Assembly: GCF_900111005.1 (NCBI RefSeq)
Contig: NZ_FOFV01000023.1
Span: 62,001 to 126,000, forward strand
Source of the DNA: Lentzea albida
GTDB lineage: Bacteria > Actinomycetota > Actinomycetes > Mycobacteriales > Pseudonocardiaceae
DNA length: 64,000 bases
Reading direction: 5' to 3'
Shown: positions 57,368-59,011 of the stretch, one piece after another
How positions within the stretch are numbered: the stretch's first letter is position 1
Layout of the letters: every line of letters begins with the position of its first letter
Notes under the pieces: generated by a model
Databases searched by the model: none
Told to the model about the DNA's origin: nothing
Seen by the model: only the letters and a program-made list of their open reading frames with translations
Made by a program: the position numbers and the translations under genes

Positions 57368-58434
57368 GCCCCGACGAACTCGGTGACGGCACGCGCGTCG
57401 TCCACGCGGTCCAGGGCGGCCCGGGCGACCCGTTCGGCGCGCAGCCCGTGTTCGCGTCCGCCTTCCACCTCGGCGGGCAGGACACCTACGCCCGTTCCGG
57501 CAACCCGACGTGGCGGTCCCTCGAGACGGCGCTGGGCTCGCTGGAGGGCGGTGAGTGCGTCGTCTTCCCGTCGGGGATGGCGGCGATCTCGACGCTCCTG
57601 CGGACCGTTCTGTCCACTGGGGACACCCTGGTCCTCCCGTCGGACGGGTACTTCCTCAGCCGGAAGTTCGTGTCCGAAATGGACGTGCGGGTCGTCGAGG
57701 CGCCCACGGCCGGGCCGTACCCGTCCTTCGACGGGGTGAAGCTGGTCCTGCTCGAAACGCCGTCGAACCCCGGCCTGGACATCTGCGACATCGCGGAACT
57801 GGCCGCGCGGGCGCACGAGGCGGGCGCGCTGCTGGCCGTGGACAACACGACCGCGACCCCGCTCGGGCAACGGCCGCTGGAGCTGGGTGCCGACGTCGTC
57901 GTGGCGTCGGACACCAAGGCGGTCGCGGGCCACAGCGACGTCCTCTTCGGACACGTCACCGCCGCGTCGCCGGAGCTGGCCACCCGGTTGCGCGACGCGC
58001 GGACGTTGAGCGGCGCGATCCCCGGTCCGTTCGAGACCTGGCTCGTGCTGCGCGGCCTCGGCACGCTCGACCTGCGGCTGGAACGCCAGGCGCGCAACGC
58101 CGCCGCGCTGTACGAGGCGTTGTCCGGCAAGGTCTCCGGGCTGCGCTGGCCGGGCGCCGAGCAGGACCCGGCCTACCTGCTGGCCGCGCAGCAGATGCGG
58201 CGGTTCAACGGGGTGCTGACGTTCGAGCTCTCCGACGCGGCCGCGGTCGAGGCGTTCATCGAGAAGTCCCGGTTCGTGTCGGCGGCGACGTCGTTCGGCG
58301 GCCTGCACTCGACGGCGGACCGGCGCGCGCAGTGGGGCGACCCGGTGCCGGAGGGCCTCGTGCGCTTCTCTGCCGGCTGCGAGGACACGCGCGACCTGGT
58401 CGCGGACGTGTCCCACGCCTTGGGACTGGATTGA
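57364..58434 (+). CDS. Cystathionine gamma-lyase/synthase family PLP enzyme
   Basis: The 356-aa enzyme of the Cys/Met metabolism PLP family has [69 protein letters not shown] and PLP-lysine K185 in [13 protein letters not shown]. It may split or form cystathionine or methionine; lyase action releasing cysteine is attractive because cysteine dioxygenase is encoded right behind it (inference). The shortened 356 residues (usual 380-400) come mostly from the N-terminus. GTG start overlapping gpsA. Confidence 0.88.
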
Positions 58435-58438
58435 CGGG

Positions 58439-58458
58439 GGGTCCCGTTTTCGGGACCC
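58439..58458 (+). terminator. Terminator of the plsC-gpsA-PLP lyase operon
   Basis: GGGTCCCG (58439-58446) pairs perfectly with CGGGACCC (58451-58458) around TTTT, immediately after the lyase stop. It lies inside the proposed promoter of the next unit (-35 TTGACG at 58431-58436). Confidence 0.6.
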
Positions 58459-58466
58459 TTCCCGGC

Positions 58467-58505
58467 ATGTCCTCCAACACGTGTTGCTGTTGTACCTGGC
58501 GATAG
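58467..58505 (+). CDS. Poly-cysteine leader peptide before cysteine dioxygenase, 12 aa
   Basis: The ORF encodes MSSNTCCCCTWR, with four Cys codons in a row (58482-58493), 47 nt before the cysteine dioxygenase start. A consensus -35 TTGACG (58431-58436) stands 18+6+6 nt upstream, the spacing used by other leaderless genes here, though the -10 (ACCCTT) is poor. Poly-Cys upstream ORFs regulating sulfur genes are known in mycobacteria. Just after its stop, GTCCT (58512-58516) can pair with AGGAC (58539-58543), which holds the only Shine-Dalgarno-like AGGA of the dioxygenase. Confidence 0.72.
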   Translation: MSSNTCCCCTWR

Positions 58506-58552
58506 TCCCGCGTCCTCTTTTCGCGCACTCGCCTGGTTAGGACTTCTCCCCG
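58506..58552 (+). promoter_or_regulatory. Possible anti-Shine-Dalgarno element before cysteine dioxygenase
   Basis: GTCCT (58512-58516) starts 7 nt after the leader stop and is complementary to AGGAC (58539-58543), whose AGGA is 10 nt before the ATG. A ribosome ending at the leader stop would cover GTCCT and free the Shine-Dalgarno; one stalled on the Cys codons would not reach it. Seen by pairing only. Confidence 0.4.
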
Positions 58553-59011
58553 ATGTTCGCCGTTCCCGAGAACAGCGTCGTTCTGCCTGAAAACTCCGCG
58601 TTGCTGCACCCCGTCCGGGTGGCTCTGTCGTGGGCGACCGATCGCGACCGCTGGAAGCACCTGCTCCGGTACGACCCGGAGGAGCGCTTCTCGGCGCTGG
58701 TCGACAAGACCGACGACCAGGAGATCTGGCTGATGAGCTGGCTCCCCGGGCAGACCGCGTCGCTGCACGACCACGACCACACCTCCGGCGCGTTCACCGT
58801 CGTCAGCGGCCTGCTGACCGAGGTCGTCACCACGAAGATCCAGGTCGTGCACTCGCTGCACGCCGGTCAGTCGCGGGTGTGGGGCCCTGGTTACGTGCAC
58901 CAGGTGCGCAACGACGGCGTGGATCCGGCCGTGTCGATCCACGTCTACCGCCACGGCACACGCGCCATGACCCCGTACCGCTACGACCCGGTCAACGGCC
59001 CCGTTCGCTGA
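58553..59011 (+). CDS. Cysteine dioxygenase
   Basis: The 152-aa cupin oxidises cysteine to cysteine sulfinate. Iron ligands are placed in the cupin motif HDHDHTSGAFTVVSG (H72, H74 or H76) and H116 in GPGYVHQVRN, and AVSIHVYRHGTRAMTPYRYD is the usual end of actinobacterial CDO. It has no Cys in the Cys-Tyr crosslink position, as in many bacterial enzymes. Preceded by a poly-Cys leader ORF. Its 3' end overlaps the convergent flavin-binding protein gene by 20 nt. Confidence 0.88.
   Translation: MFAVPENSVVLPENSALLHPVRVALSWATDRDRWKHLLRYDPEERFSALVDKTDDQEIWLMSWLPGQTASLHDHDHTSGAFTVVSGLLTEVVTTKIQVVHSLHAGQSRVWGPGYVHQVRNDGVDPAVSIHVYRHGTRAMTPYRYDPVNGPVR

Follow-up and report, generated by a model that had tools for sequence, protein, structure and literature searches.

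Why should a gene for a thiol dioxygenase, an enzyme usually read as cysteine-degrading, be preceded by a short reading frame with a run of cysteine (Cys) codons, and in which direction would such a leader act? The question is raised by a 64,000-nucleotide (nt) stretch of the Lentzea albida genome (family Pseudonocardiaceae; contig NZ_FOFV01000023.1, positions 62,001 to 126,000, hereafter the window). Here an open reading frame (ORF) of 12 amino acids (aa) with four Cys codons at 58482-58493 lies 47 nt ahead of the dioxygenase gene, counted from the leader TAG to the dioxygenase ATG. A preliminary description had reported this arrangement, and direct reading of the sequence confirmed it. It had also proposed that a GTCCT behind the leader stop hides the gene's only Shine-Dalgarno sequence (SD), AGGAC. 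Folding and covariation across genera support a hidden SD, with another likely partner: a second GTCCT within the leader, at 58469-58473, which was absent from that description. We consider it somewhat probable (roughly 0.6) that the element is a cysteine-responsive translational attenuator that is on at low cysteine. This would place a thiol dioxygenase under ribosome-stalling control of the kind associated with cysteine biosynthesis. The parts of the element are as follows.

58467..58505, + strand: leader ORF MSSNTCCCCTWR, 12 codons, predicted to be leaderless (ATG at 58467, TAG at 58503-58505)
58482..58493, + strand: four Cys codons TGT TGC TGT TGT, read in the sequence (two Cys in 8 same-genus relatives)
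58553..59011, + strand: thiol dioxygenase gene (CDO_I / cupin), 152 aa (Pfam PF05995, E 4.9e-13)
58539..58543, + strand: SD AGGAC of the dioxygenase gene, its only SD, read in the sequence
58469..58473, + strand: likely anti-SD GTCCT, in leader codons 1-3, 8 nt before the first Cys codon (from the fold and RNAalifold)
58494-58502 / 58529-58537, + strand: inner helix ACC-N-GGCGA / TCGCC-N-GGT, nearly invariant within the genus
58509-58512 / 58522-58525, + strand: hairpin CGCG, enclosed by the inner helix (from the fold)
58512..58516, + strand: post-stop GTCCT, with G58512 in the CGCG stem and the rest in the loop; not the predicted SD partner

Conservation of the leader

The dioxygenase gene is present in 251 of 297 genomes of the family. 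We compared 24 loci of the same genus, the window included, with 66 loci from other genera of the family, of which 6 were returned by the search and 60 were picked by hand from its listed places; this second set therefore leans towards close homologues. Chance expectation was taken from 4000 random positions in the window on both strands, where we sought ORFs that start with ATG or GTG, have no more than 45 codons, and end 20-115 nt upstream, and counted Cys in their last nine codons. A Cys-bearing leader stands ahead of the gene in 24/24 same-genus and 64/66 other-genus loci, compared to 9.6% of random positions. Leaders with at least two Cys are found in 24/24 and 53/66 loci (1.8% of random positions), and leaders with at least four Cys in 15/24 and 33/66 (0.08%). 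Loci L046 and L047, where no leader was found, were counted as misses in this tally and left out of the covariation and ribosome-position tests, and a dioxygenase paralogue (L002) was left out of the comparisons.

A short leader form is common to 23 of the 24 same-genus loci, including the window, while L025, the most divergent, has a longer related leader ending MIDGRGHIDLRLVCSALCPAW. In other genera, the endings are typically CPCCCR, CRCCR or, in many, RGHIDLRxVASALC plus a few residues, and L025 belongs to this last, long type. By sequence, the window's short leader looks like an in-frame shortening of the long type (VSFRA..ALCPAW compared to MSFNALCCTWR), and the indel separating four-Cys from two-Cys versions is likewise in frame. 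The two-Cys versions form a sub-clade (L007, L008, L015, L016, L017, L022, L023, and L024). Seven of these 8 loci (all but L023) have ATAGTCC at the leader stop, the complement of GGACTGT at the SD; this segment may act as a third partner and could then weaken or reverse the response in the sub-clade. Codon choice is also distinctive: the last nine codons of 88 leaders contain 235 TGT and 40 TGC, compared to 0 TGT and 16 TGC in six genes of the window, and part of this TGT bias may be due to RNA pairing.

Cys leaders on the dioxygenase gene occur in several actinobacterial groups. Among 29 loci from other families, a Cys-rich leader was found in 17/18 of one genus (probably Streptomyces) and in 0/11 of other genera; it was also found in 11/11 probable Mycobacteriaceae loci and 6/9 further loci.

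The partner of the Shine-Dalgarno sequence

Folding of the predicted mRNA to the start codon gives -23.7 kcal/mol, with AGGAC paired to the GTCCT at the leader start and the inner helix inside. In the window, the probability of pairing with the SD is 0.95 for this GTCCT and 0.00 for the post-stop GTCCT, in a fold model without pseudoknots. Across 23 same-genus loci, again with the window, the probability exceeds 0.5 for the leader-start segment in 21 and for the post-stop segment in none; when the fold is extended by 12, 30, and 60 nt of coding sequence, it does so in 19, 20, and 13 loci for the former and in 0, 2, and 0 for the latter. RNAalifold gives back both helices, that of the leader-start GTCCT with the SD and the inner helix.

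Covariation was tested with one locus from each of 24 other genera and 20,000 permutations of the SD partners. For the ten codons at the leader's end, the mean pairing energy is -13.1 kcal/mol with the SD region of the same locus and -10.8 with swapped SDs (0/20,000 permutations), and 30 other random choices of representatives gave at most 3/2000. The ten codons before this tail, taken as a control, show no covariation with the SD across the 24 genera (15,337/20,000). From the covariation of the leader tail it follows that, in the family, the SD partner is a part of the leader, on the Cys codons or close to them. The Cys codons themselves contain the anti-SD in many relatives, for example GTGTCCTTG:CGAGGACAC, TGTCTTCCT:AGGAAGACA, and TCCTTCGTG:CACGAAGGA. 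In the window, the partner is predicted to have moved to the leader's first codons. An Rfam search of the element gave two chance-level matches only (E 4.8 and 8.4).

The post-stop GTCCT is present as the preliminary description had it, but 6 nt past the leader stop rather than 7. That description had proposed to look in relatives for a conserved Cys run and for covariation of this segment with the SD; the Cys run is there, whereas no covariation with the SD was seen across the 24 genera for the 30 nt that follow the leader stop (19,208/20,000 permutations equal or better). The post-stop GTCCT is also missing from L025. Given these results together with its pairing probability in the window and in the same-genus folds, we regard it as an unlikely anti-SD.

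Start of the transcript

A promoter-like arrangement ends just ahead of the leader start codon.

58431..58436, + strand: -35-like TTGACG, at conserved spacing, overlapping the stop codon of the upstream gene; TTGACA in several relatives
58454..58459, + strand: -10-like GACCCT, at conserved spacing; weak, 2/6 compared to TATAAT
57382..58434, + strand: cystathionine gamma-lyase gene, same direction as the dioxygenase gene, start codon provisional (NF005758, E 3.5e-156, above cut-off)

The arrangement TTGANN-17-GACCCT-7-ATG is found in 23/24 same-genus loci (with a spacer of 18 in one), and L025 has the version TTGACC-17-GAGCAT-7-GTG. An in-frame promoter-like motif occurs in 29/88 loci compared to 0/1760 dinucleotide shuffles, and a looser one in 39/88 loci compared to 21/4400 mononucleotide shuffles; 24 of the 29 and 24 of the 39 are same-genus. 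In 45/64 other-genus leaders, a possible start codon follows a TTG at a distance of 36 or 37 nt, the start having been chosen with the TTG motif in mind. This spacing suggests that the leader is leaderless, with the transcript starting at A58467. Such a start would also explain an inverted repeat behind the upstream gene, GGGTCCC..GGGACCC, as promoter spacer and -10, since the repeat largely coincides with the spacer and the -10-like element. The repeat was also considered as a terminator of the upstream gene and rejected: a terminator scan was empty, and the repeat overlaps the conserved promoter-like spacing.

A ribosome on the leader

We modeled how much energy it takes to open the SD when a ribosome stands at a given leader position. 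In the window, folded to the start codon, opening costs 4.6 kcal/mol when the leader is free and 4.8 with a ribosome at the stop, compared to 1.7, 2.6, 3.7, and 3.4 kcal/mol with the first to fourth Cys codon in the A site. For the 15 four-Cys loci (including the window), a stall at the first Cys codon is below both the free and the stop state under all nine footprints with this fold, and it remains below the free state in 15, 15, and 14 of the 15 with 12, 30, and 60 nt of coding sequence. In the window itself, the advantage over the stop position is kept with 30 nt, and with 60 nt the two positions are about equal. Among the other genera, the cost falls by 1 kcal/mol or more in 40/64 loci (17/24 genera) and rises by as much in 3 when the first Cys codon is the stall site; with the ribosome eight codons upstream, it falls in 11/64.

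This modeling gives fair support to an SD that would open under a ribosome on the Cys codons, but no such support to one that would stay closed under a ribosome at the stop. A terminating ribosome stays only briefly, and a stalled ribosome dwells longer. From this longer dwell and the precedent of mycobacterial leaders discussed below, we infer that on at low cysteine is the better bet, and an anti-SD lying under a ribosome stalled on the Cys codons leads to the same predicted logic.

In the proposed mechanism, transcription would start at A58467, giving a leaderless mRNA on which ribosomes load at the leader AUG. On an empty leader, GUCCU (58469-58473) would pair with AGGAC (58539-58543), together with the inner helix formed from the leader end, and the SD would be hidden. 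When Cys-tRNA is scarce, a ribosome would wait on the first Cys codons and cover GUCCU, the SD would be free, and the dioxygenase would be translated. When cysteine is plentiful, the ribosome would pass, terminate, and leave, and the hairpin would re-form.

Other Cys leaders in the genome

The dioxygenase leader has company in the same genome, where three further Cys leaders of this class were found ahead of other genes.

G000:C31:34326-34382, - strand: Cys leader L281 before nitrite/sulfite reductase (above the NF042934 cut-off)
G000:C23:267646-267702, - strand: Cys leader L282 before a DUF4395-rhodanese pair, DUF4395 being assigned by eye (above the NF042934 cut-off)
G000:C39:21255-21305, - strand: Cys leader L284 (..MACRCSR) before O-acetylhomoserine/O-acetylserine sulfhydrylase (below the NF042934 cut-off)

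In the last of these, pairing with the sulfhydrylase gene's SD involves the Cys codons plus the codon that follows, the same layout on a gene that is expected to rise at low cysteine. Most of the weaker genome matches of the two NCBIfam leader models, NF042936 and NF042934, are probably due to chance, as both also match in control genomes (10 and 9 of 14, E up to 10). No other leader was recognized in the 30 inspected of 119 genome matches to a CCCC-leader DNA pattern, nor in the 30 inspected of 238 matches to GGTCACATCGACCT with two mismatches.

The enzyme and its substrate

The dioxygenase matches the CDO_I profile and has the HxH..H metal motif; H72, H74, and H116, which we take to be the metal ligands, are invariant in 18 aligned rows. 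By sequence and fold, its nearest solved structures are those of ergothioneine dioxygenase (8qfl and related, 24-28% identity; 8qfp 28%), and the cysteine dioxygenases of B. subtilis (19%) and of mammals rank behind them, so the substrate need not be cysteine. EgtD, a protein of ergothioneine synthesis, is found in 290/297 genomes, and 44 genomes with EgtD lack the dioxygenase (by subtraction). The dioxygenase is kept in 5 of the 7 genomes without EgtD, which argues against self-made ergothioneine as the only substrate. Co-occurrence with EgtD thus gives no support to ergothioneine as the substrate. Downstream operon partners were considered as a hint to the direction of the response, but no sulfur gene was seen by eye among them at the 15 of 80 loci inspected (the partner in L188 is YbaB-like).

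Weighing the direction of the response

Several results count against an attenuator that is on at low cysteine, and we gather them here. The stability of the fold is modest (z-score -1.94, with 7/200 shuffles as stable), covariation within the genus is uninformative because the paired columns hardly vary, and 58300-58700 gave no promoter in a sigma-70 scan. When 12 nt of coding sequence are folded as well, the order of the first Cys codon and the stop is reversed in the window (4.0 kcal/mol at the first Cys codon, 4.2 free, and 1.9 at the stop); among the four-Cys loci, the first Cys codon is below the stop in 15/15 with 3 or 30 nt and in 12/15 with 60 nt, but in 2/15 with 12 nt. An earlier accessibility model with 30 nt of coding sequence, superseded because its SD window was badly placed, put the first Cys codon above the stop in 9/23 loci. 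In the 8 two-Cys loci, the outcome varies with footprint and fold length, the effect of the footprint being due, in seven of them, to a possible pairing of ATAGTCC with GGACTGT at the SD. In the other genera, a ribosome at the stop lowers the SD cost as often as one on the first Cys codon (40/64 loci, 18/24 genera), and in genus g15 stalling changes the cost little. The direction is not robustly fixed by the modeled folds, since it varies with the length of coding sequence folded. Farther out, only 4/9 scored probable Mycobacteriaceae loci have an SD complement, and the Cys tract of 13 probable Streptomyces loci has none; the SD mechanism is therefore argued here for the window's family alone, the occurrence of Cys leaders farther out being patchy. 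Finally, it would be paradoxical, and anti-homeostatic, for cysteine shortage to induce an enzyme that degrades cysteine. Streptomyces expression studies, as far as the relevant passages go, give mixed hints on direction. In Streptomyces sp. SCUT-3, sections of PMC7181669 give two cdo mRNAs as 50.2- and 8.3-fold up on cysteine-rich feather medium, at the mRNA level; part of a report on S. shaoguanensis has cdo mRNAs rising late, at 96 h, alongside sulfate-reduction genes.

Either the enzyme's role has been misread, and it serves sulfur salvage from other thiols, or the polarity of the circuit is opposite to that of its relatives. The paradox would be resolved most simply if the enzyme in fact acted on a thiol other than cysteine, from which sulfur is recovered as sulfite. 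Tentatively, and with less confidence than in the attenuator itself, the leader-controlled dioxygenase of actinomycetes might not serve cysteine disposal at all but be part of a cysteine-starvation response, produced upon stalling at Cys codons together with nitrite/sulfite reductase and O-acetylhomoserine sulfhydrylase, oxidizing the other thiol and returning its sulfur as sulfite.

The opposite polarity is what the preliminary description had favored: ribosomes that reach the stop would mask the post-stop GTCCT and open the SD, and the gene would be on when cysteine is plentiful. This would suit a catabolic enzyme and the rise of cdo mRNA on feather medium in the passages cited above, and it gains from the SD opening by a stop-positioned ribosome in the other genera and from the reversed order in the window with 12 nt of coding sequence; moreover, a pseudoknot of the post-stop TCCT with the SD lies outside the fold model. 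However, the post-stop segment lacks covariation and is the SD partner in none of the same-genus folds to the start codon (2/23 with 30 nt of coding sequence), L025 has no such GTCCT, the window's SD stays closed under a stop-positioned ribosome when 3 or 30 nt of coding sequence are folded, and a terminating ribosome would hold its position only briefly. We regard this polarity as unlikely. Less likely again is that the leader acts at another level, through transcription-translation coupling or Rho, or sets basal expression only, with the SD pairing incidental. The probable Streptomyces leaders, about 90-390 nt before the chosen start and with Cys tracts that lack an SD complement in the 13 loci, would fit such action, but across the 24 genera of the window's family the Cys tail of the leader does covary with the SD. 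Least probable, by a little, is a nascent-peptide arrest of the kind for which TnaC is the precedent, in which RGHIDLRxVASALC would stall at high free cysteine or another sulfur metabolite, mask the anti-SD, and let the substrate induce the enzyme: it would reconcile an SD opened by stalling with induction by high cysteine, and in many genera whose leaders have only one or two Cys codons, other residues of the peptide are conserved too, but leaders of a similar class precede nitrite/sulfite reductase, the rhodanese pair, and O-acetylhomoserine sulfhydrylase in this genome, and the window's leader lacks the HIDL part and retains a Cys run.

Relation to known leader systems

Canestrari et al. 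2020 (Mol Microbiol) reportedly deals with polycysteine-encoding leaderless short ORFs of mycobacteria. Our literature search turned up no account of a cysteine dioxygenase gene with a Cys leader, although that paper may list one. Polycysteine leaderless short ORFs of mycobacteria are described in passages of PMC13236596, PMC9094748, and PMC9031893, which bear out the earlier statement that poly-Cys upstream ORFs are known there. As far as these passages describe them, they resemble the element in the window in being short ORFs with a Cys run near a sulfur gene, predicted to be leaderless here as there, and in an SD hidden by leader pairing that a stalled ribosome is predicted to unmask. The window differs in its target, a thiol dioxygenase, and in the place of the anti-SD, predicted to be the first leader codons and not the Cys codons; its cysteine response is a prediction. 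The design is therefore already known from mycobacteria, though its use on a thiol-oxidizing enzyme was not to be expected, and what this analysis adds is the dioxygenase target, its spread, the covarying SD partner in the family, and a revision of the earlier proposal as to the anti-SD and the probable polarity. At the level of the peptide, the leader of L025 resembles NF042936, the Ms4527A-family Cys-rich leader peptide (E 3e-4, 20.3 bits compared to a cut-off of 45), and that of L071 resembles NF042934, a putative leader peptide (E 2.6e-3, below cut-off); the window's leader matches neither model.

Cys leader peptides have also been described upstream of mycobacterial cys operons and cbs (Seliverstov et al. 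2005, PMC1262725). In the portions of that account relevant here, they are, like the window's leader, short and have Cys codons in runs close to the stop, but precede cys operons or cbs, and have no conserved terminator hairpin, Rho being suggested instead. The same source, in part, proposes for the LEU element of leuA in Actinobacteria that the regulatory codon run pairs with the SD of the next gene, as in the element considered here; unlike it, the LEU element senses leucine, has a biosynthetic target, and includes a pseudoknot.

Further observations

The leaders L233-L257 and L261-L271, from probable Streptomyces and Mycobacteriaceae, are of the ..RCCCCSC and ..ECCR types, mostly without a clear SD complement. 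The paralogue L002, left out of the comparisons, is a second dioxygenase at G000:C11:11273-11572(-), beside a rhodanese-like ORF recognized by eye, and the 250 nt ahead of its chosen start show no obvious Cys leader. In the same-genus relative L003, a repeated inverted motif, GAGACGAGACGTCTCGTCTCGC, lies just downstream of the dioxygenase gene.

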